Assembly: GCA_938023895.1 (NCBI GenBank)
Contig: CALJDH010000324.1
Coordinates: forward strand, 1-11,819
DNA: 11,819 nucleotides
Direction of reading: 5' to 3'
Source: an uncultured Aliiroseovarius sp.
Lineage (GTDB): Bacteria > Pseudomonadota > Alphaproteobacteria > Rhodobacterales > Rhodobacteraceae
Shown: piece after piece, positions 2,886 to 11,819 of the stretch
How the letters are laid out: every line of letters starts with the position of its first letter
Numbering within the stretch: the stretch's first letter is position 1
The notes under the pieces: model-generated
What the model was told of the DNA's origin: nothing
Seen by the model: the letters and a program-made list of their open reading frames with translations, nothing else
Databases searched by the model: none
Made by a program: the position numbers and the translations under genes

Positions 2886-4163
2886 CTATTCGGCACTAAG
2901 TGATTGCACCGCCATCCGAACCGCATTTTGTGTTAACTCAAGATCCATCGCGGATATCGCCAAAGACGGATAGAGCTTGCCGGGTGACTTAAAAATGCCA
3001 TGTCGTCGTAGCGTTGCGTTGTAAGTCGCGTTGCGCTGCGGGTCATCGTGTTTGGCGGTCCGGTAGTCCCGGCAGGTGCCGCTTGTGAAGAAGATGTCGA
3101 ACAGGGTCTCGTCCCCACATATCTGGTGCGGAATATCCGCCGCGCTCAACGCCTCGCTTTGCATGTCTTGCAGCTGTTTCCCGATGGCGCGCAGGCGGTC
3201 ATAGTTGCCCTCGCGCCGCAGGATCTCCATCGTTTTCAGCCCCGCGGCTGCCGCAATCGGGTTCCCCGATAACGTGCCCAGTTGCATCAGCCACTTATCC
3301 GCGCCGACGCTGGACTTGTCGAAATGCTGCATGATCTCGGCACTTGCGCCAAGCGCGGCCAGAGGGAAGCCGCCGCCGATGATCTTGCCCAAGGTGCAGA
3401 TGTCGGGCGTCACGCCATAGCGTTCCTGCGCGCCGCCATAGGCCAGCCGGAAGCCCGTTACGATCTCGTCGAAAATCAGCAGAACGCTGTGCTTGTCACA
3501 CAGATCACGCAGCCCTTGCAGATAGCCCGGATCGGCGGGAATGATCCGTTGCAACGGCTCGACGATGATCGCGGCGACGTCGTTGTGCTCGGTCAGCAGC
3601 GCCTCGACCGCAGCCAGATCGTTGAACGGTGCGATCAACATCTGGTCGGCGACCCCTTGCGGAATGCCTGCGCTGTCCGGCACGGCTTGGGGGAAGTTGA
3701 CGCGGGCTTCGGGCGCAAGGCTCATCTGCGCCTCAGCGCTCATCCCGTGATAGCCGCCTTCGAATTTCAGGATCTTGTCGCGCCCGGTATAAGCGCGCGC
3801 AAGGCGGATGGCGTACATATCGGCCTCGCCCCCTGACGCGACGAACCGCACTTGTTCACAGCAGGGCACCGCATCGACGATCGCTTCGGCCAGTTCGATG
3901 CCTTTTGCGTTGTTCGCAAAGAAGGTCATGCCCTTGGGGAGTTGCTCCAGCACGGCTTCCATGACCTCGGGGTGGCCATGGCCCAAAAGCATCGGACCGG
4001 ACCCGATCAGATAGTCGATATATTCGTTCCCATCCTCGTCCCAGACATGACTGCCTTCCCCGCGCGCGATGACAATGCCGGGGTCGAAATTTCCAAAGCC
4101 GCCAGCGGGCAACACGGCGCGGGCGCGGGCGATCCAATCAGCTTGAGAGGTCAGTTTCTGCAT
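2886..4163 (-). CDS. Class III PLP-dependent aminotransferase, GSAM-like
   Basis: This 425-residue enzyme belongs to fold-type I, class III aminotransferases and resembles glutamate-1-semialdehyde 2,1-aminomutase (HemL). Visible features are the N-terminal D-x-D-G-N-EYIDY segment (42-51), the phosphate-binding region ASGGEADMYAIRLARAYTG (109-127), the aromatic pair Y138-H139 that stacks on the cofactor, D232 in LIFDEIVTGFR for the pyridine nitrogen, and K260 in TLGKIIGGG as the Schiff-base lysine. All catalytic residues are present, so it should be active. HemL itself is unlikely because the gene is the last of a catabolic operon, only 3 bases after the preceding enzyme. A role in removing the amino group of a demethylated pathway intermediate is inferred; the amino donor and keto product are unknown. 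The ATG at 4163 has a GGAG element about 6 bases upstream. Confidence 0.9.
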   Translation of the reverse strand: MQKLTSQADWIARARAVLPAGGFGNFDPGIVIARGEGSHVWDEDGNEYIDYLIGSGPMLLGHGHPEVMEAVLEQLPKGMTFFANNAKGIELAEAIVDAVPCCEQVRFVASGGEADMYAIRLARAYTGRDKILKFEGGYHGMSAEAQMSLAPEARVNFPQAVPDSAGIPQGVADQMLIAPFNDLAAVEALLTEHNDVAAIIVEPLQRIIPADPGYLQGLRDLCDKHSVLLIFDEIVTGFRLAYGGAQERYGVTPDICTLGKIIGGGFPLAALGASAEIMQHFDKSSVGADKWLMQLGTLSGNPIAAAAGLKTMEILRREGNYDRLRAIGKQLQDMQSEALSAADIPHQICGDETLFDIFFTSGTCRDYRTAKHDDPQRNATYNATLRRHGIFKSPGKLYPSLAISAMDLELTQNAVRMAVQSLSAE

Positions 4164-4166
4164 GGG

Positions 4167-5270
4167 TCACTCCAGTTCAAGAATGGGGGTTCCAAGGATG
4201 TCCGGGTCAGGCGTGACACCAAGCCCCGGACCATCAGGCGGGGCGATGCGCCCATCCTTGCGGGTCGGGCAATCGGGCGCAATGCGCGGGCCGACATAGG
4301 ACGACAGATCGCAGGTATTCAGCAGCGCGCCTTGCGGGGTCGAGGCCGCGAAATGCAGCGATGCCGCCGTTACGATGTCCGATCCCCAAGTGCATTCGGC
4401 GCAGATCTCCGCCCCCAGATGCACGGTCAAATCGCGGGCGCGGCGCGTGGCAGAGAGCCCGCCGAATTTCGACAGCTTCAAGGCGACCGCATCCAACACG
4501 CCAAGCTCATGCGCGCGGATGAGCGACGCCAGATCGAAGGCGCCTTCGTCGACTTTCATGGGCAGGCCCGTTGCCTGCCGAACCGCGGCGCAATCCTCAA
4601 GCGTTTTGCAGGGCTGCTCTAGCATCACGTCCAGATGGGCCACCGCGCGGCCCGTCCGCGTGGCCTGCAACTTGGTCGCCCCACAGTTCCAGTCGCCATA
4701 GACGAGGGGACCTTCCCCCACCGCCTCGCGCACTTTGGTCAAACGCTCGGCATCGGCCTGCCAATCGGCGTCGGCGCCCAGCTTGACCTGAAACTGCCGG
4801 ATGCCCGTGGCATACGCCTCGCGCGCAATCAGCGCCATGTCGTCGGGTGCGATGCAGGTGATCGAGTGATACAGCGGCATGTCTGCGCGGGTGCGCCCGC
4901 CAAGCAACGCATAAAGCGGCTGTCCGGTCGCCTTTCCGAACAGATCCCAAAGCGCCATGTCGACGATGGATTTCGCATGGAGATGCCCCTGCAGAAATCC
5001 ATCCAACTTGCGCATGGGCGCATCCACACCAAAGGGCGAGACGCCAAGGATTTCCGGTGCCATTTCCACGACCGCGCTGGGGACGCCATCCGCAAAGGCC
5101 GGCAGATAATGCGGGATCGGGCAGACCTCGCCCCAGCCTTTCAGTCCGGTGTCCGTTTCCAGACACAGGACATGGCTTTTAACCGTGTCGCAGGTTTTCC
5201 CCTCGGCCATGTAATAAGTTTCATGGCTGGTCAGGTCGACGGACCACAGAGAGGTCTTGGTAACTTTCAT
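4167..5270 (-). CDS. Enolase-superfamily enzyme, betaine 2-epimerase-like
   Basis: This 367-residue protein is a complete mandelate racemase/muconate lactonizing enzyme family member: N-terminal capping domain (about 1-125), then a TIM barrel. Metal ligands are D193, E218 (in EQPC) and D241 (in KVDEG); the acid/base lysines are K163 (QVKLG) and K265 (KLSKFGG). From memory, 4-hydroxyproline betaine 2-epimerase (HpbD) has its lysines at the same positions and a similar QxK strand. It also has a Tyr near position 56 and a Trp in a D-x-W-G-G-D segment that cradle the quaternary ammonium. Here Y55 (PHY) and W295 (ECTWGSD) match both. An epimerase or racemase acting on a betaine alpha-carbon is therefore the best guess, but the substrate is inferred. 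The start ATG overlaps the stop of the upstream paralogue (ATGA, 5267-5270), so translation is probably coupled; no good Shine-Dalgarno sequence is seen. Confidence 0.88.
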   Translation of the reverse strand: MKVTKTSLWSVDLTSHETYYMAEGKTCDTVKSHVLCLETDTGLKGWGEVCPIPHYLPAFADGVPSAVVEMAPEILGVSPFGVDAPMRKLDGFLQGHLHAKSIVDMALWDLFGKATGQPLYALLGGRTRADMPLYHSITCIAPDDMALIAREAYATGIRQFQVKLGADADWQADAERLTKVREAVGEGPLVYGDWNCGATKLQATRTGRAVAHLDVMLEQPCKTLEDCAAVRQATGLPMKVDEGAFDLASLIRAHELGVLDAVALKLSKFGGLSATRRARDLTVHLGAEICAECTWGSDIVTAASLHFAASTPQGALLNTCDLSSYVGPRIAPDCPTRKDGRIAPPDGPGLGVTPDPDILGTPILELE

Positions 5271-6373
5271 GAATACACCGACACGGGATTGCCCAGCACC
5301 TTTTCTTCAGGATGAACCCCAAGGCCCGGAGCTTCGGGCAGGTGCAGATGCCCGTCAACGTTGCGCGGCCCACGCCCATCTGCAATGTCGACCGTAACCA
5401 TGTCTTGGCAAGCCCAGACGGCATGGCAGTTCTCGTCGGGGATGGTCGCGGCCAAATGAAGCGCTTCGGTATCCGCCAGAACCGACCCGCCGGTGGCCAT
5501 GACGAACATGTCGAGCCCATGCGCCAGCGCAACGTCCCGCATCCGCGCTGCTTTGGTCAAGCCACCAACACGGTTCAGTTTGATGTGGAGTATTTCGGCC
5601 AGCCCATCGCGCGCGATCCGCGTCGCGTCTTGCAAGGTGACCAACGTCTCGTCCACGGACACGGGCGCGGCATGTTTGCCGCTGATCGCCGCAATATCAT
5701 CTAACGTCTCGCAGGGCTGCTCGAACATGACGTTCAGGTCCTCGCAGGCCCGCATCACACGCAAAGCCTGTTGCCGCGTCCAACCACGGTTGACGTCATA
5801 AAGCACGATCTCTCCGTCGCGACGGATACTTTCCACATCGCGAACACGGGCAATATCACGTTCCACGTCTCCACCGATCTTTACCGAGTGCGCTACGTAT
5901 CCCCTCTTTCGATACCGCTCGATCACTTCTCGGGTTTCTTCGACAGTTTTCGCCCCAACGGACGAGGCAATCGGGCGCGGAGTGCGTGACCCGCCACCCA
6001 TCAGATCGGCAATCGGCAGGCCAGCTGCCTGACCCGCAATGTCCCAGCATGCCATATCAATTGGGCTTTTTGCATAAAGGTGGCCCGGCAAAGCCAGATC
6101 CATCGCGCGTTCCACATCCAGCACGCGGCGCGGGTCAAGGCCAAGGACAAATGGCGCCATGGTCTGTATCCCCGCTCGGATGCCCGGTCCGTGGGCGGGC
6201 ACATAGGTGTGCCCCCACGGCGTGCCTTCGCCCCAGCCGATGATGCCTGCATCAGTTTCGACTTTGACCAGCGTGGCATCCAGCACCTCGAACTTCAGCC
6301 TTCCGCCAGACAGCCAATAGGGATGCTCTAGCGGCAGGTCGATTTGAAAGACTGAGATGCGCGTTATCTTCAT
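5267..6373 (-). CDS. Enolase-superfamily enzyme (MR/MLE group), second paralogue
   Basis: This 368-residue protein is a distant paralogue of the next gene in the operon, with the same layout and no gap in the core. The catalytic set is intact: K165 (SVKIGG), D193 (YDVNRGW), E218 (EQPC), D241 (VDET) and K265 (KLNRVGG). The segment that in its neighbour reads E-C-T-W-G-S-D reads M-A-T-G-G-S-V here (292-298), so the Trp and acidic residue that would bind a quaternary amine are absent. The capping domain keeps W20, the WGEGTPWGHTY stretch (47-57) and Y57. It likely acts on a different intermediate. The conserved HSVKIGG strand recalls hydroxyproline dehydratase-type members, but that is a weak resemblance from memory. 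Epimerase, racemase, dehydratase and cycloisomerase are all possible. Its ATG overlaps the stop of the upstream dehydrogenase gene (ATGA, 6370-6373). Confidence 0.87.
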   Translation of the reverse strand: MKITRISVFQIDLPLEHPYWLSGGRLKFEVLDATLVKVETDAGIIGWGEGTPWGHTYVPAHGPGIRAGIQTMAPFVLGLDPRRVLDVERAMDLALPGHLYAKSPIDMACWDIAGQAAGLPIADLMGGGSRTPRPIASSVGAKTVEETREVIERYRKRGYVAHSVKIGGDVERDIARVRDVESIRRDGEIVLYDVNRGWTRQQALRVMRACEDLNVMFEQPCETLDDIAAISGKHAAPVSVDETLVTLQDATRIARDGLAEILHIKLNRVGGLTKAARMRDVALAHGLDMFVMATGGSVLADTEALHLAATIPDENCHAVWACQDMVTVDIADGRGPRNVDGHLHLPEAPGLGVHPEEKVLGNPVSVYS

Positions 6374-7452
6374 GGTGTCACCACTATGTTGCCGACGTGT
6401 TTCTTTGCGATGAATGCTGCTTGTGCTTCGCGTAGTTGCTCAAGGGGGTACGCGGCGGCCAACAGCGACTTGATCTCGTCCTCTTCAATATAGCGGATGA
6501 GGTTTGGCATGACCTGAGGCGGGATCACCGTTGACCCGGTGAACGTCAGATCGCGCAGATAGAAGGTGCGCAGGTCCAGCTCGACCATCGGCCCTGCAAT
6601 TGCACCAGAACAGGTATAGCGCCCGCCACGCTCGAGGATGTCGACAAGGGTTGGCCAATAGGGGCCGCCCACAACATCCGCAACGACGCTGATCTTTTCA
6701 CCCCCAAGCGCCGCGCGCAGGTTTTCGGGTGCGCGCGGCAGGATCACATCGGGTCCAAGCGCAGCGACCTCATCGTGCTTCGTCTCTGAGGACATAGCGA
6801 TGACGCGCGCGCCACGACGCTTGGCCAGTTGTACCAATGCGCCCCCCACGCCGCCCGATGCACCGGGGACAAGCACCGTGTCTTTCGCGGTGACATTGGC
6901 GCGGGTCAGCATGCCTTCGGCGGTGGAATAGGAACAGGAAAATGTCGCGAGCTCTGCATCCGTCAGGTCGGATTGTACCGCCAACGCGTTGCGCGCGGGG
7001 ATGGTGGTGTACTCGGCAAAGCCTCCATCCCGTTCTGACCCATAATAGCCAGTCTTGTTGATGTTTTCCGGATCATCTGCGTCGCGCAGCCAGTTGTCTG
7101 TGATTACACGCTCTCCGATCCGGCTTGCATCTACACCGTCGCCAACAGCCACGATTTCGCCGCAGACATCTGCTCCTTGAATACGTGGGAAGGTGATCGG
7201 AGCGCCTCCCCATGTAGGATCGTCTTTGCCGACCTCGTCAAACGCCCCACCCGTCGTCGCGTCGGTCACGGTCTTGGAGTACCAACCCGAGCGCGTGTTC
7301 ACGTCCGTGTTGTTCAATCCGCAGGCCCCGACTCGGATTAGCACCTCGCCCGGCGCAGGGTCGGGGCGCGGCCAGTCGGTGTGCAACACCATCTGGTCAA
7401 GGTCGCCGTGCCCTATCGTGACCATCGCTTTCATTGTGTCGGGAATTGTCAT
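6370..7452 (-). CDS. Medium-chain dehydrogenase, quinone-oxidoreductase type
   Basis: This 360-residue protein has a GroES-like N-terminal domain (about 8-150) and a Rossmann domain with the nucleotide-binding loop PGASGGVGGALVQLAK (196-211). The end of the second Rossmann strand (IAMSSETK, 219-225) has serines instead of Asp/Glu, which points to NADP(H). The four-cysteine structural zinc lobe of alcohol dehydrogenases is missing, and the usual GHE catalytic-zinc motif reads GAD (93-95), although C44 and C173 occupy places where zinc ligands could sit. A zinc-free, quinone oxidoreductase-like or enoyl reductase-like activity is therefore more likely than a classical alcohol dehydrogenase. A roughly 30-residue insertion follows residue 57. 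The ATG at 7452 overlaps the stop of the upstream flavoprotein gene (ATGA, 7449-7452) and has AAGGA upstream. In the pathway it probably oxidises or reduces an intermediate; which one is unknown. Confidence 0.85.
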   Translation of the reverse strand: MTIPDTMKAMVTIGHGDLDQMVLHTDWPRPDPAPGEVLIRVGACGLNNTDVNTRSGWYSKTVTDATTGGAFDEVGKDDPTWGGAPITFPRIQGADVCGEIVAVGDGVDASRIGERVITDNWLRDADDPENINKTGYYGSERDGGFAEYTTIPARNALAVQSDLTDAELATFSCSYSTAEGMLTRANVTAKDTVLVPGASGGVGGALVQLAKRRGARVIAMSSETKHDEVAALGPDVILPRAPENLRAALGGEKISVVADVVGGPYWPTLVDILERGGRYTCSGAIAGPMVELDLRTFYLRDLTFTGSTVIPPQVMPNLIRYIEEDEIKSLLAAAYPLEQLREAQAAFIAKKHVGNIVVTP

Positions 7453-9881
7453 GCGTCCATCCTTGGCTTCAGACTTCCGGGATCATAGGCGGGTTCGCCC
7501 AGCACACGCGCCGCGCGGGGGGTGCCGTGGATCACGACCTCAAGTGCCGTACCGGGGGTGGCGGCGTCGGGTTTGATATAGGCAAAGGCCAGGACCTTCC
7601 CGACCGTCGGCCCGAACACCACAGACGCGGTAGAGCCGACAACCTGCCCGTCCAGCATCACCGCCTCGCCGCCGTGGCCGTCTGCCTTGCCGTCGGGCTC
7701 GATTTCCAAATAGGCGCAGACCCATGGCAGGTCGGTGTTCAGGGTCTTGTCACGGCCCAGATAGTCCTTGTCCGTCCGGGCGAAGCGCAGCACGTCGGCC
7801 TCGGCCAGCGTGACTTCGTTGGTTAGTTCGCCCGCGCCCTTAAAGCCCTTCTCCATCCGCATCGCGTTCATGGCAAAGCTGCCGTAGTCGGCAATACCAT
7901 ACGCCTCGCCCGCAGCCCAAAGTGCGGTGTAGACATCCAGACAAGCAGCGTGCGGCATGTGGAATTCCCAACCAAGCTCGCCCGCATAGGACATGCGGAA
8001 GGCCCAGATCTTGTGGCCTGCGACGGTGATTTCCTGCGCAGATAGCCAACGGAAGCCGGCGTTTGACAGGTCCGCCTCGGAGCAAGCGGCCAGCACGTCA
8101 CGCGACTTCGGCCCGTTCAGCGACAGCGCACTCCAATCGGACGACAAGGCCGTGATCGTCACGTCTTCGCCCGCGCGCTGATGGTTCAGGTGGTCCAGCA
8201 ATCGTTGTTCGAAGAAGGCGGCACAGACCAGATAGAAGCTCTCCTCACCCATCCGCACAATCGTCGTTTCCAGCTCGATCCGCCCCGCACGGTTCAGCAT
8301 GTGGGTCAGGGTAATGGACCCCACTTTCTGCGGCATTCGGTTCGCGGTCAGGCGATCCAGCAGCGCATAGGCATCCGGCCCCTCGACCATCACCTTGGTG
8401 AAGGCAGTCACATCCATGATGCCGACGCCGTCGCGCACCGCTTTCACCTCGGCCGCGACCATGTCGTCAACGGGGGAGCGGTTGAAGGAATAGTGGTCGC
8501 GCTGCTCGATCCCCTTGGCGAAGAAGCGGGGGCGCTCGAAGCCATAGACCTCTTCATGTACGGCGCCTTTGGACTTCAGAAGGTCATGCAGGGGGGACGG
8601 CTTGATCGGACGTCCGGCCAAGCGGTTGAAATGCGGGAAGGGGATTTCGTGGCGCAGGCAGTAATCCTCTTCCGCCTTCACCACCTGCCAGTCCTTCGTG
8701 GCGTAGCTGCCGAAGCGACGCGGATCGAACTCGCGCATCGAGATATCGGCGGCCCCATGCACCATCCAGCGTGCCAGCTCGCGGGTCAGACCGGGGCCCC
8801 AGCCGATGCCGATCTGGGTGCCACAGCAGCACCAGTAGTTGCGCACACCGGGCGCAGGACCGATCAGCGGGTTGCCATCTGGCGGGTGGCTGATCGCGCC
8901 ATGGACATCGCGCTGGATGCCCAGTTCGGCAAAGAGCGGCATCCGGTTCAGGCTTTCTTCCAGATACGGCATGACGCGATCGTAATCCGCGTCAAACAGC
9001 CAGTTTTCGTATTCCCACGGGCATTCATCATGCCAGACCGAGTTCGGGTTCTCTTTCTCGTATATCCCGATCAGCCCCTTCTTTTGCTCCATCCGGATAT
9101 AGCCCGAGACCTTCTTGTCGTCGCGAATGACCGGCAGTTCGGTGTCGAGGTCTTGGAACTCGGGCACCTCGTCCGTCACGAAATAATGGTGCGTCATCGA
9201 GGTCATCGGCAGTTGCAGCCCCGACCATTCGCCCATCTGACGGGCATAGGTGCCGCCCGCGTTGACGACATGCTCGCAGGTGATCGTGCCTTTCTCGGTC
9301 TCGACCACCCATTCGCCGCTGTCGGTCTGCGTGATGTTGGTGGCGCGGCATTGGCGAATGATCCGCACGCCCTTTTGGCGGGCGCCTGCCGCCATCGCCA
9401 TAGTGACGTTGGTCGGATCGACGTGCCCGTCATCCGGCGTATGAAGCGCGCCCAGAACGCCATCGAGATTGTAGAAGGGATGCAGCTCGGCCACTTTCTG
9501 GGGTTCGACCAGTTCGATGTTGAACCCCAGCGACCGGCCCACTGACAGCGTATGCCGCAGCCAGTCCATTTCGTCTTCCGTATAGGCCAGACGGAACGAC
9601 CCGCATCCGTGCCATGTCACGGGCTGACCGGTTTCGGCCTCCAAGCCGCCGGAATAGAGACCAATATTATAGTCCACGCATTTCCCCAGCCCGAAGGACG
9701 AGGTCGAATGCGTGATCTGCCCAGCGGCGTGCCACGTGCTGCCCGATGTCAGCTCGGCCTTTTCCAGAAGGACGGTATCTTCACCCCAGCCTTCATGCCC
9801 AAGATGATAGGCCAGCCCGACGCCCATGACGCCTCCGCCGACGATGACCACGCGTGCGTGGGATGGAAGAGTTGCGGCCAT
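7449..9881 (-). CDS. Dimethylglycine/sarcosine dehydrogenase-family flavoprotein
   Basis: This 810-residue protein has the full two-part layout of dimethylglycine dehydrogenases. An N-terminal DAO-type FAD domain (dinucleotide loop GGGVMG at 15-20) is followed by a linker and a C-terminal aminomethyltransferase (GCV_T-like) folate domain (about 430-810, with SYAGELGWEF at 631-640). The motif GSTWHAAG (47-54) places H51 where mitochondrial dimethylglycine dehydrogenase carries covalently bound FAD. The family oxidatively removes an N-methyl group from a tertiary or secondary amine and can hand the one-carbon unit to tetrahydrofolate. The start is ATG at 9881, with GGGAA 7 bases upstream. A longer reading from 9950 would run through the divergent promoters and add 23 unlikely residues. 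It is the first gene of the leftward operon. The exact amine cannot be read from the sequence. C351-C353 form an odd CCC run; see findings. Confidence 0.9.
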   Translation of the reverse strand: MAATLPSHARVVIVGGGVMGVGLAYHLGHEGWGEDTVLLEKAELTSGSTWHAAGQITHSTSSFGLGKCVDYNIGLYSGGLEAETGQPVTWHGCGSFRLAYTEDEMDWLRHTLSVGRSLGFNIELVEPQKVAELHPFYNLDGVLGALHTPDDGHVDPTNVTMAMAAGARQKGVRIIRQCRATNITQTDSGEWVVETEKGTITCEHVVNAGGTYARQMGEWSGLQLPMTSMTHHYFVTDEVPEFQDLDTELPVIRDDKKVSGYIRMEQKKGLIGIYEKENPNSVWHDECPWEYENWLFDADYDRVMPYLEESLNRMPLFAELGIQRDVHGAISHPPDGNPLIGPAPGVRNYWCCCGTQIGIGWGPGLTRELARWMVHGAADISMREFDPRRFGSYATKDWQVVKAEEDYCLRHEIPFPHFNRLAGRPIKPSPLHDLLKSKGAVHEEVYGFERPRFFAKGIEQRDHYSFNRSPVDDMVAAEVKAVRDGVGIMDVTAFTKVMVEGPDAYALLDRLTANRMPQKVGSITLTHMLNRAGRIELETTIVRMGEESFYLVCAAFFEQRLLDHLNHQRAGEDVTITALSSDWSALSLNGPKSRDVLAACSEADLSNAGFRWLSAQEITVAGHKIWAFRMSYAGELGWEFHMPHAACLDVYTALWAAGEAYGIADYGSFAMNAMRMEKGFKGAGELTNEVTLAEADVLRFARTDKDYLGRDKTLNTDLPWVCAYLEIEPDGKADGHGGEAVMLDGQVVGSTASVVFGPTVGKVLAFAYIKPDAATPGTALEVVIHGTPRAARVLGEPAYDPGSLKPRMDA

Positions 9882-9915
9882 TGTCAGTTCCCGTTCGTGG
9901 TACAAAGATTCCCTC

Positions 9916-9944
9916 TCGACAGGGTAAGCAAACAAATATACCAT
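9916..9944 (+). promoter_or_regulatory. Candidate promoter of the regulator and Rieske operon
   Basis: TCGACA (9916-9921, five of six matches to -35) and TACCAT (9939-9944, four of six to -10) are 17 bases apart. Transcription would start at about 9951-9953, at the regulator's ATG itself, which fits the lack of a Shine-Dalgarno sequence and suggests a leaderless message. It covers nearly the same DNA as the leftward promoter, so polymerase could occupy only one of the two at a time. Identification is by eye. Confidence 0.38.
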
Positions 9945-9950
9945 CGTCAA
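9921..9950 (-). promoter_or_regulatory. Candidate promoter of the five-gene catabolic operon
   Basis: On the minus strand, TTGACG (9950-9945, five of six matches to the -35 consensus) is followed after 18 bases by TACCCT (9926-9921), which keeps the T1, A2 and T6 of the -10 box. Transcription would begin near 9914, leaving a leader of about 33 bases before the ATG at 9881 that contains the GGGAA ribosome-binding element. The -35 box is overlapped by the palindrome at 9946-9961. This is read by eye and has no experimental support. Confidence 0.4.
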
Positions 9951-9972
9951 TCATGAATGACACAAATGTATC
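9930..9972. repeat. Direct repeat pair flanking the palindrome
   Basis: AAACAAATATACC (9930-9942) and ACACAAATGTATC (9960-9972) match at 10 of 13 positions, with the core CAAATRTAYC. They are exactly 30 bases apart, close to three helical turns, and sit on either side of the 16-bp dyad. They could be half-sites for a second regulator dimer. The second copy lies inside the coding region of the regulator. Confidence 0.35.
9946..9961. promoter_or_regulatory. Candidate operator: palindrome on the regulator start codon
   Basis: GTCAATCATGAATGAC is a 16-bp dyad in which 7 of 8 symmetric pairs match; the single mismatch is A9950 against A9957. Its centre covers the ATG at 9953, and its left arm covers the -35 element of the leftward promoter. 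A protein bound here would block both the catabolic operon and the regulator's own gene. MurR/RpiR proteins commonly bind dyads near their own genes, so this is a sensible target, but binding is inferred. Confidence 0.42.
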
Positions 9973-10840
9973 ATCCGCCGTATTGACCCGCCTCTCTGAA
10001 GAGTGGGATGACCTCACACCCGAGGCGCAGAAAGCCGCGCGCTATGTGCTGGAAAACCCGCGCGATGTCGGGGTCTCGACCGTGCGCGAAATTGCGGAAG
10101 CCGCGAATGTGAAGCCCAACACGGTTGTCCGTATGGCGCGTCAGGTGGGCTTTGATGGCTACGACGATTTCCGCGAGCCCTTCCGCGAAGCCATTCGCAA
10201 CGGCAACGTGGACTTCCCTGATCGGGCCCGCTGGCTGCAGGATCTGTCCAAACGCGGCGAGTTGGGCGCTCTTTATGCCGAGACGGTCACCGGCCTTCTG
10301 GGCAATATCGAGGAAACCTTTGCCCGCGTAGACGTGGCTGAACTAAAGGCCGCAGCCGAAGAAATTTGGAACTGCCGCAATGTCTTTACGCTGGGCGTCG
10401 GCGTGAACAACGCAAACGCGCGCAATTTCACCTATTTGGCGTCCACCGGGATGACTCAGTTTCACGCCATCCCGCGATCCGGCTCGACCGCTGTCGACGA
10501 TCTGGCTTGGGCGGACGAGCGTGACGTTCTGATCGCCGTGACCTGCCATCCCTATCGATCCGAAGTGCTGGACGCGATCGGCGTTGCCCGCGAGCAGGGC
10601 GTTCGGATTATCGGCATCTCGGACAGCCCGGCAAGCCCGGTCCTGCGCGCTGCGGATCACCGGTTCGTTGTGCAGGCCGACGCACCGCAGTTTTTCCCGT
10701 CTTCCGTTTCGACCATCGCGCTTTTGGAAACGCTTCTCAGTTTCGTCATCGCAGTGGCCAGTGACGAGATCGTCGAGCGGGTCGAAAAATTCCACAGCCG
10801 ACGTCACCAGCTTGGCATCTATCGCGAGGATCCTGCATGA
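9953..10840 (+). CDS. MurR/RpiR-family transcriptional regulator
   Basis: This 295-residue protein has an N-terminal helix-turn-helix domain of the RpiR type (about 1-80, with VREIAEAANVKPNTVVRMAR at 44-63 as the recognition region) and a C-terminal SIS domain (about 125-270). In typical family members the SIS domain binds a sugar phosphate through a Ser-containing first loop and an SxSGxT loop. Here these read GVGVNNANA (148-156) and VTCHPYRSE (196-204), so the ligand may not be a phosphorylated sugar. I chose ATG 9953 because it gives the normal family N-terminus; an upstream frame open from 9854 would overlap the divergent gene. There is no Shine-Dalgarno sequence, which fits a leaderless message. 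Its stop overlaps the start of the Rieske gene (ATGA), and it lies divergent from the catabolic operon. It most likely controls both units, as repressor or activator. Confidence 0.88.
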   Translation: MNDTNVSSAVLTRLSEEWDDLTPEAQKAARYVLENPRDVGVSTVREIAEAANVKPNTVVRMARQVGFDGYDDFREPFREAIRNGNVDFPDRARWLQDLSKRGELGALYAETVTGLLGNIEETFARVDVAELKAAAEEIWNCRNVFTLGVGVNNANARNFTYLASTGMTQFHAIPRSGSTAVDDLAWADERDVLIAVTCHPYRSEVLDAIGVAREQGVRIIGISDSPASPVLRAADHRFVVQADAPQFFPSSVSTIALLETLLSFVIAVASDEIVERVEKFHSRRHQLGIYREDPA

Positions 10841-11819
10841 CGGCACCCCCCACGCGGTCCTTGGCCGCACGCTATTACACCGACCCTGATATCTATGCGC
10901 AGGAGTTGTCCGGCCTGCTTGCGCGGACGTGGCAGTTTGCGGGCCATGTCAGCCAACTGCCCAATGTCGGCGACTATTTCACCTTCGAGATCGCGGGCCA
11001 GAACCTGTTTTCGATCCGTGGCCGGGATCAGGTGATCCGCACCTTCTATAACGTCTGCCAGCACCGCGCGCATGAGATGGTCACAGGCACCGGCAACACC
11101 CGCGTGGTGGTCTGCCCCTATCACGCATGGACCTACGAGCTGACCGGCCATCTGCGGGCGGGTCCGAATATCAAGTCGGTACCGGGCTTTGATCGGTCAA
11201 AGATCTGCCTGACAGAAGTCCGGACCGAGGATTTCCACGGCTTCCTCTTCGTCAATCTGGATGATGCCGCCGCCCCGATGGACGACTGGTTCCCCGGCGT
11301 ACGCGATGAAATCGCTGCCTTCGTCCCTAATGTCGACACGCTAGCGCCTTTGGAGTGGGTCGAGGTGCCCGAGAACTGCAACTGGAAGGTCTCGGTCGAG
11401 AATTACTCCGAGTGCTATCACTGCCCCATTAACCACGCGACCTTCGCCGAGGGCGTGATCAAGCCGGAAACTTATGACATCCAACCGGATGCGGGCGGCG
11501 GCTATGTTCTGCGCCACACGACCGAATGTCAGTCTATGGACAAGATGACCTATCCCGTGGACCTCTCGGTGCCCCATGCGGGGGACTATCAAAGCTGGTT
11601 CCTATGGCCCATGTTCTCGTTCCAATGCTATCCGGGCAACGTGCTGAACACCTATCACTGGCGCGCGGATGGGCCCGAAAACTGCACTGTCTGGCGTGGA
11701 TGGTACACACCTGACGGCGCCGAAAGCGACGTGATCCGCGGGCTTGCGGTGCAGGATCGCGACACCACTGTTGAAGAGGATATTCGGCTGGTAGAAAGTG
11801 TGCAGCGCGGGCTGAAATC
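10837..11819 (+). CDS. Rieske non-heme iron N-demethylating monooxygenase, partial
   Basis: The reading frame is open from ATG 10837 to the window edge, giving 327 residues; the C-terminus lies outside. The Rieske box is C74-x-H76 with C93-P-Y-H96. The mononuclear iron site has H195 and H200 in NYSECYHCPINH (189-200), with D315 (in VEEDIRLVESVQRGL) as the likely third ligand. The residue bridging the two centres is E192, where ring-hydroxylating dioxygenases have Asp. From memory, Glu here is typical of carnitine, glycine betaine and stachydrine oxygenases, which cleave C-N bonds of quaternary amines. Removal of a methyl group as formaldehyde, or another C-N cleavage, is the inferred reaction. 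The ATG overlaps the regulator stop, with GAGGA 6 bases upstream, so translation is coupled. A ferredoxin-type reductase partner is needed and may lie just beyond the window. Confidence 0.92.
   Translation, partial: MTAPPTRSLAARYYTDPDIYAQELSGLLARTWQFAGHVSQLPNVGDYFTFEIAGQNLFSIRGRDQVIRTFYNVCQHRAHEMVTGTGNTRVVVCPYHAWTYELTGHLRAGPNIKSVPGFDRSKICLTEVRTEDFHGFLFVNLDDAAAPMDDWFPGVRDEIAAFVPNVDTLAPLEWVEVPENCNWKVSVENYSECYHCPINHATFAEGVIKPETYDIQPDAGGGYVLRHTTECQSMDKMTYPVDLSVPHAGDYQSWFLWPMFSFQCYPGNVLNTYHWRADGPENCTVWRGWYTPDGAESDVIRGLAVQDRDTTVEEDIRLVESVQRGLK

Follow-up and report, generated by a model that had tools for sequence, protein, structure and literature searches.

A probable RpiR-controlled, modular betaine-type catabolic locus in an uncultured Aliiroseovarius sp., and its place in the roseobacter dddQ neighbourhood

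We analysed a stretch of 11,819 nucleotides (hereafter, the window) from an uncultured Aliiroseovarius sp. of the family Rhodobacteraceae; the window is the entire contig CALJDH010000324.1 (C324) of a genome that is 56% complete (assembly GCA_938023895.1). Most of the window is occupied by genes for a Rieske oxygenase, an RpiR-family regulator, a flavoprotein of the dimethylglycine dehydrogenase (DMGDH) type, a quinone-oxidoreductase-type protein (QOR), two enolase superfamily proteins (ENO1 and ENO2), and a class III aminotransferase (AT). An original prediction, made from the letters of the sequence, had proposed these seven genes as a betaine-type catabolic locus, and all seven were recovered at the same positions as open reading frames (ORFs) with matching Pfam and NCBIfam profiles. 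We consider it likely that they belong to a modular locus, controlled by RpiR, for the breakdown of a quaternary amine (betaine) by N-demethylation, transamination, and aldehyde oxidation. The cluster is also the neighbourhood of dddQ in roseobacters.

Genes and regulatory region of the locus

Gene families were assigned with Pfam and NCBIfam profiles, and relatives of solved structure were found by phmmer against PDB chains. The Rieske protein gave 183 bits to CntA (6Y8J) and contains NYSECYHCPINH; this quaternary-ammonium motif was also scored in relatives. The residues concerned in CntA are Y203 (the ammonium tyrosine), E205 (the bridging glutamate), C206/C209, and the iron histidines H208/H213, according to excerpts of PMC7948474 and PMC10952381, and the excerpt of the latter describes the Cys pair in some group V members. 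The equivalents of Y203, E205, C206, H208, C209, and H213 are all kept in the window protein. Among 86 cluster Rieske proteins, three were dropped because their identity was below 50%; the motif NYSECYHCxxNH is kept in 82 of the remaining 83, and the [2Fe-2S] Rieske motif in all 83. By this signature, the window protein is predicted to be a group V (quaternary ammonium) oxygenase with the corresponding turnover, which agrees with the earlier assignment to the C-N type. The GbcA model NF058607 (cut-off, 670 bits) failed for the truncated window protein (140 bits) as well as for three full-length cluster Rieske proteins (161, 151, and 153 bits).

The flavoprotein matched human DMGDH (5L46) with 485 bits across residues 8-798, and it combines an FAD domain with an aminomethyltransferase fold, so that its description as DMGDH-type holds over the full length. 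Its motif GSTWHAAG, which we take to be the flavin-linking His motif, is found in 95/95 relatives of at least 50% identity. ETF genes lie close to the flavoprotein gene in Mesorhizobium. Genes of the MttB (trimethylamine-methyltransferase) family were seen beside the DMGDH-type flavoprotein gene at L120:10424-14409 and beside the Rieske gene at L149:4206-5558 (L, G, and C numbers are our handles for loci, genomes, and contigs).

The closest named relatives of AT are from Aliiroseovarius (95% identity). More generally, its relatives are GSAM first, with beta-transaminases further off, and the protein stayed below the HemL cut-offs (TIGR00713, 368 vs 527 bits; PRK00062, just missed, 385 vs 398 bits). 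The lysine motif LGKxxG is present in 77/79 AT relatives. The coordinates of all features are listed in Table 1.

Table 1. Features of the window
Feature	Position	Strand	Basis
petABC-like genes (Rieske Fe-S subunit, cytochrome b, cytochrome c1; cytochrome bc1 complex)	26-2729	convergent toward cluster	named from sequence
AT, class III (GSAM-like) aminotransferase, 425 aa	2886..4163	-	PF00202
ENO1, enolase superfamily, 367 aa, candidate epimerase	4167..5270	-	PF13378/PF02746
ENO2, enolase superfamily, 368 aa, candidate dehydratase	5267..6373	-	close relative of PDB 3EEZ
QOR, MDR superfamily (quinone-oxidoreductase-type), 360 aa	6370..7452	-	PF08240/PF00107
DMGDH-type FAD/folate N-demethylase (predicted), 810 aa	7449..9881	-	DAO + FAO_M + GCV_T + GCV_T_C
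Conserved block in divergent promoter, likely promoter/operator	9915..9952		column identity, 66 sequences
RpiR-family regulator (HTH_6 + SIS), 295 aa	9953..10840	+	PF01418, PF01380
Rieske oxygenase alpha subunit, group V (CntA-like; predicted), cut by contig end	10837..11819	+	PF00355, PF00848

Four gene junctions have a 4-bp overlap, and the gap between AT and ENO1 is 3 bp, which suggests two divergent operons around a single promoter region of 71 bp (9882-9952). With the start codon of RpiR at 9953, the protein has the same length as its relatives. Conservation is higher in the 38 bp that abut this codon (9915-9952) than elsewhere between the two genes, with a mean column identity of 0.87 vs 0.63 (66 sequences, 61 distinct rows). 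These 38 bp include sigma-70-like hexamers (TCGACA-17-TACCAT, 9916-9944, + strand) that end 8 bases before the RpiR start, so the transcript of the regulator would be nearly leaderless. A second sigma-70-like match lies on the opposite strand (9963-9935). The block is likely a promoter/operator, although matches to a consensus are not proof; a palindromic RpiR operator was sought in it by eye, and none was convincing.

The petABC-like genes are outside the betaine-type cluster, and a GC-rich hairpin with a T-run lies near 2756-2779, between them and the cluster. Long antisense ORFs in the window were set aside as mechanical.

Conservation of the cluster and its replaceable parts

Three sets of loci were compared. 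The first, the named loci, were the best 80 of at least 529 ENO2 relatives in a scan of one-per-species genomes; as they were picked by ENO2 similarity, the frequency of ENO2 among them is high by construction. The 69 of the 80 that have a full DMGDH gene and ENO2 served for most locus counts. In a subset of 65, called from ORFs, the Rieske gene was required as well. ORF calling is crude, and the counts on the 69 and 80 named loci and on the distant set of 22 loci were made with tblastn. The second set, the family sample, comprised 149 genomes that were queried with four proteins and were not selected on ENO2; orthologues were accepted at 60% identity or more for ENO1 and at E <= 1e-280 for the flavoprotein. 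The third set comprised 22 distant or plasmid-borne loci: 18 genome loci (16 from a class search and two from a phylum search) and four plasmid loci. The class search gave 18 matches, of which G212 and the window's own genome are not among the 22 mapped loci.

The gene order of the window recurs in Ruegeria, Shimia, Sulfitobacter, Lentibacter, and others, which excludes a chance grouping of the seven genes, and rearranged versions of the set occur in other families. In relatives the typical order is Rieske-, RpiR-, DMGDH+, QOR+, (DddQ), (ENO3), ENO2+, ENO1+, AT+, where DddQ and a third enolase, ENO3, are variable members. Among the 65 named loci with Rieske, DMGDH, and ENO2, we found ENO1 in 63, RpiR in 62, QOR in 57, and AT in 54. 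The family sample contains ENO1 orthologues at 26 places, 23 of which are within 10 kb of a flavoprotein orthologue on the same contig; the remaining three are on fragmented contigs (G139 and G078, on separate contigs, and G099, on a 4.9-kb contig that stops inside the flavoprotein gene). In G099, the flavoprotein match (L251:3118-4829) is in two pieces in different frames that meet near 3420, possibly because of a frameshift or an assembly error. ENO2 orthologues are within 10 kb of the flavoprotein in 15/16 cases in the same sample.

The flavoprotein orthologue itself was found in 28/149 family genomes, in 18/385 class genomes (the window's own included), and in 5/299 phylum genomes, all five in the same class. 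Plasmid-borne copies of the cluster exist, one of them in Mesorhizobium. In the distant and plasmid loci, the flavoprotein and an aminotransferase occur together in 20/22 cases, the exceptions being L155 and L156 (contig end); a Rieske gene is present in 18, RpiR in 17, and any enolase within 10 kb in 13. The nine loci without an enolase in this range are L146-L150, L152, L153, L155, and L156; eight of them still hold other parts of the cluster, and L156, the ninth, lies at the end of its contig. These observations suggest that inversion of the alpha-carbon is an accessory step and not the theme of the locus. N-demethylation followed by transamination is the theme common to nearly all loci, and enolase chemistry is an add-on. 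Thus, the gene set is conserved together in other genomes, as a betaine-type locus would require, and the demethylation and transamination parts of the original prediction are supported. Its proposal that an alpha-carbon to be inverted explains every gene is not supported; QOR and ENO2, moreover, come and go among relatives.

AT is itself replaceable. AT3b, an unrelated aminotransferase of class III, replaces it in 6/65 named loci, at AT's own position in five of the six and one gene earlier in L089. AT3b also stands in for AT in L117 and L142 of the distant and plasmid set; L115 has both AT3b and AT and is thus not a replacement. The nearest solved relative of AT3b is the taurine:2-oxoglutarate aminotransferase 6JIX (384 bits). 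The exchange of AT for a non-orthologous enzyme of the same class suggests that the transamination step is needed.

The locus of the window probably extends beyond the contig end. Another contig of the same genome, C232 (4064 bp), opens with the last 79 residues of an aldehyde dehydrogenase (ALDH; 87% identical), followed by a gene of the carboxymuconolactone-decarboxylase family (CMD; 94% identical), and in several relatives ALDH and then CMD are downstream of the Rieske gene. Judging from this gene order, C232 would continue C324, and the locus would probably consist of at least nine genes, so that seven was probably too low a count. CMD is present in 45/80 and ALDH in 17/80 named loci; within 10 kb of the flavoprotein in the distant and plasmid set, CMD is present in 11/22.

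Enolases, QOR, and the dddQ neighbourhood

Both window enolases keep the lysine motifs and the acidic metal-ligand motifs of the superfamily (in ENO1: QVKLG, GDWN, LEQPC, VDE, and KLSK), which are presumably the Lys bases on strands 2 and 6 and the three acidic metal ligands. The lysine motifs are present in 70/70 ENO1 relatives, and SVKIG and KLNRVGG in 79/79 ENO2 relatives; residues next to the acidic ligands vary, and the pattern used for these motifs missed a few relatives. By motif, ENO1 and ENO2 are predicted to be catalytically competent MLE-like enolases. ENO2 matched 3EEZ with 739 bits; the PDB molecule names of 3EEZ and of 2RDX (ENO3-like, as judged by eye) give no specific function.

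The enolases bear on the best-surviving alternative, namely, that the locus is a cluster for proline betaine or hydroxyproline betaine (Hpb-type), in which the ring alpha-carbon would be epimerised by the enolases, methyl groups would be removed by the Rieske protein and the flavoprotein, and the ring would be opened by enzymes encoded elsewhere. The known hydroxyproline betaine pathway comprises the HpbD epimerase and demethylases, and thus likewise links an enolase superfamily enzyme to Rieske and flavin demethylases. In addition, the cluster enolases fall in one sequence group with cis-3-hydroxy-L-proline dehydratase and match its model NF043002 over the full length; however, ENO1 (323 bits), ENO2 (333 bits), and ENO3 (408 bits) all fall below its cut-off of 500 bits. 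The structures 2PMQ/4H2H, which we take to be HpbD, scored just 174-177 bits with the window enolases, below 4MGG, 2RDX, and 3EEZ, and no HpbD-named model was among the NCBIfam matches of these enolases. With a secondary ring amine as substrate, there would be no direct role for an aminotransferase, but AT belongs to the core and the enolases are dispensable; no ring-opening gene is among the seven. The stachydrine (proline betaine) demethylase Stc2 is also a group V member, according to an excerpt of PMC10952381. On balance, we regard an Hpb-type cluster as quite unlikely.

For QOR, the best NCBIfam model was the PIG3 quinone reductase, below its cut-off. The protein has only four cysteines (at 44, 97, 173, and 281), and an Asn presumably occupies the position of a Cys ligand of zinc alcohol dehydrogenases; a C=C reductase is therefore more likely than an alcohol dehydrogenase, and QOR is probably a reductase. 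In most family genomes, the flavoprotein gene is followed by ENO1 (short form) or QOR (long form), and in G079 and G139 by ENO2. An ENO2-type enolase accompanies 15/16 clusters with QOR vs 2/10 without (Fisher p = 0.0002, uncorrected for shared ancestry). This table covers 26 of the 28 family genomes, as the contig stops after QOR in G098 and inside the flavoprotein gene in G078; G036 and G109 were scored as ENO2-type, since their maps show a related form, ENOm. With strict ENO2 orthologues in all 28 genomes, the four counts were 13, 4, 3, and 8 (p = 0.019). In the distant set, 7/8 QOR loci have an ENO2-type enolase, and QOR is present in 0/6 loci with only ENO1 or ENO3; QOR is present in 60/69 named loci, a set picked on ENO2. 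We read these genes as a second module (module B), in which a predicted elimination (by ENO2 and, in relatives, by DddQ or ENO3) would be followed by reduction (by QOR).

In L038 and similar loci, the 192-residue gene between QOR and ENO3 is DddQ (Pfam DMSP_lyase; 312 bits to 4LA2), and DddQ was found in 44/69 named loci. QOR is directly upstream: the DddQ start is within 50 bp of the QOR end in 36/40 loci with both. The family sample has 31 DddQ-like places, 15 of them inside the cluster (at 40% identity or more, 10/15). The window copy has neither DddQ nor ENO3, and the window's own genome, 56% complete as it is, gave no match to PF16867 (DMSP_lyase); the neighbourhood was thus invisible in the original prediction. 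The neighbour genes of the window copy match those of dddQ in relatives. Similarly, in the roseobacter dddQ neighbourhood (R. pomeroyi SPO1593-SPO1596 and the R. nubinhibens ISM_14095 region), which differs from the window copy in having dddQ, QOR adjoins DddQ as in the named loci. The excerpt of PMC3338564 describes dddQ as closely linked to an MDR028 gene in R. pomeroyi and R. nubinhibens, this is the sole neighbour noted there, and no pathway is given for the neighbour genes. From its position, and not from its sequence, we infer that SPO1593 is the QOR counterpart.

A strict tie of DddQ to QOR (9/16 vs 0/10 in family genomes, same contig) was considered and rejected, being contradicted by the named set, by G099, and by G139, where DddQ (35% identical) is beside ENO3 and ENO1 on another contig. 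A pairing of ENO3 with DddQ was weak and was also dropped (both, 26; DddQ only, 14; ENO3 only, 10; neither, 15 of the 65 loci). Outside full enolase clusters, a QOR homologue is beside DddQ in 4/10 examined DddQ loci (L155, L245, L249, and L259); the ORF map of L249 has the QOR, and the DddQ that drew in this contig is absent from that map. In L259, TRAP transporter genes follow QOR-DddQ, and in L245 the pair is near an MmgE/PrpD gene and a choline-sulfatase-like gene. A DddP-like M24 gene between CMD and AT (L152:3010-4272; 304 bits vs the DddP cut-off of 600) was set aside as a coincidence: at E <= 1e-70, this protein has matches in 76/385 class genomes at more than 100 places, and among the loci examined only L152 has it. 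On the Rieske side, sulfotransferase-like (L043:1776-2519) and arylmalonate-decarboxylase-like (L070:2890-3714) genes occur in 30 and 31 of the 65 loci, respectively; a malonate decarboxylase would suit a pathway that ends in a substituted malonate.

The frequency of DddQ raises the possibility that dddQ is the signature gene of a locus for dimethylsulfoniopropionate (DMSP) catabolism and that the other genes process DMSP or its products. The excerpt of PMC5395565 reports that dddQ is induced by DMSP and that dddQ mutants lose 97% of dimethyl sulfide (DMS) production in R. pomeroyi and 20% in R. nubinhibens. Against such a role, the same excerpt gives a Km of DddQ for DMSP of 22 mM, 25/69 named loci and the window itself have no DddQ, the aminotransferase and the DMGDH-type flavoprotein have no evident role in DMSP breakdown, and QOR failed the model of the acrylyl-CoA reductase AcuI (40 vs 440 bits). 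Moreover, in R. nubinhibens the MDR gene that clusters with dddQ failed to correct acrylate sensitivity, as stated in the excerpt of PMC3338564. A DMSP-catabolic locus is thus very unlikely in our view. Although DddQ does use DMSP in the cell, roughly half of the sampled DddQ-like genes are part of an operon whose remaining enzymes have no evident role in DMSP breakdown.

Proposed pathway and its meaning

The gene identities, active-site signatures, co-conservation, and modularity described above were observed, and the reactions, their order, and the substrate are what we infer from them. The Rieske oxygenase would remove the first methyl group from the quaternary nitrogen as formaldehyde, and the DMGDH-type flavoprotein would move further methyl groups onto folate. 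The class III aminotransferase would then deaminate the resulting primary amine, and ALDH, encoded on C232, would oxidise the resulting aldehyde to an acid. In module B, ENO2 would eliminate a beta-leaving group from a carboxylate substrate and the double bond would then be reduced by QOR; relatives often extend this module with ENO3 and with DddQ, which is a beta-elimination lyase. ENO1 would most likely epimerise the alpha-carbon.

As to the fate of the methyl group, a homologue of the GFA-family (formaldehyde-activating) protein of L256 was found in 16/69 named loci, and its gene starts within 35 bp of the Rieske end in 15 of the 16. GFA proteins are named for formaldehyde handling, although the general role of the family is debated. 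The position of this gene beside the Rieske gene favours methyl removal over release of trimethylamine and, together with the flavoprotein, suggests demethylation, unlike the reaction of CntA.

Several observations weigh against the proposed pathway. The closest Rieske relative of known structure, CntA, does not demethylate but releases trimethylamine. The window has no gene for a Rieske reductase or a transporter; no CntB-type or other reductase was recognised beside the cluster in the loci examined, where no systematic search was made, except for a candidate in L119, an FAD-dependent oxidoreductase. The two linked transporters that were typed (L116 and L119) differ in kind. L146 and L147, both from one genus, have the flavoprotein and AT with no Rieske gene within 10 kb, and ALDH is within 10 kb in just 8/22 distant and plasmid loci. 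With respect to module B, ENO2 occurs without QOR in 2/10 family genomes and in 9/69 named loci, and G059 and L155 have QOR but no enolase. Nor is DddQ tied to QOR in the named set, where it is present in 40/60 loci with QOR and in 4/9 without; in G099, which has DddQ, no QOR lies between the AT and flavoprotein genes.

Glycine betaine degradation uses GbcAB, then dimethylglycine and sarcosine enzymes, so that, as proposed for the window, a Rieske demethylation is followed by a flavin/folate demethylation. The window locus differs in that the GbcA model failed, in that an aminotransferase, ALDH, and enolases follow, and in its RpiR regulator. A variant of a carnitine, gamma-butyrobetaine, or glycine betaine pathway, which would account for a Rieske protein whose closest solved structure is CntA and whose closest NCBIfam model is GbcA, as well as for the carnitine dehydrogenase gene that flanks the distant cluster L151, is the least probable of the alternatives, because even the full-length Rieske proteins are far below the GbcA cut-off, the enolases, QOR, and AT are left unexplained, no carnitine gene is among the seven window genes, and the flank of L151 is a single case. 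At L151:15789-18369, the flanking genes are a BKACE-type gene and a carnitine 3-dehydrogenase/thioesterase fusion gene; a BKACE gene is also near the L144 cluster.

For the demethylation and transamination pathway proposed here, the substrate is most likely a betaine with a primary-amine backbone, and our best guess is a beta-amino-acid betaine. This class fits best because relatives of AT and AT3b act on beta- or omega-amines and because DMSP, on which DddQ is known to act, is a beta-onio propionate, the sulfonium counterpart of such a betaine. One example is the head group of the algal betaine lipid diacylglyceryl-hydroxymethyl-trimethyl-beta-alanine (DGTA), hydroxymethyl-trimethyl-beta-alanine. 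ENO2 (or DddQ acting on the ether) would form 2-(trimethylammoniomethyl)acrylate from it, and QOR would yield the betaine of beta-aminoisobutyrate, with ENO1 setting the stereocentre. Demethylation by the Rieske protein and the flavoprotein, followed by AT and ALDH, would then give carbon at the level of methylmalonate. This head group would employ every gene predicted in the window. According to the excerpt of PMC7111306, DGTA was found at the surface of a seaweed that is host to Rhodobacteraceae. That the locus degrades such a betaine, and that the native role of DddQ lies in this nitrogen pathway, is a speculative proposal, and we regard it as unlikely.

The kinds of enzymes encoded here are known. 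Their combination, the modular build, and the placement of DddQ were not found in the openly licensed literature, a set without most subscription papers: searches of it on betaine, betaine lipids, homarine (named once, in a single paper), hydroxyproline betaine, DddQ substrates, and dddQ together with enolase, Rieske, or DMGDH genes showed, among the papers listed, no published pathway for the cluster, with or without dddQ, and no characterised pathway that matches in full, in agreement with the original prediction.

Roseobacters process much of the nitrogen and carbon released by marine algae. Our finding sets a widespread uncharacterised operon in the context of a proposed pathway at the genome level, and with it solved enolase structures that carry no specific function in their PDB names, such as 3EEZ for ENO2. 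DddQ, which is encoded in many clusters of the relatives, has so far been known as a producer of the climate gas DMS, and the question of its other role becomes addressable by knock-outs and assays. If the DGTA proposal were true, the DMS production of DddQ would be a side activity of a betaine-lipid pathway.

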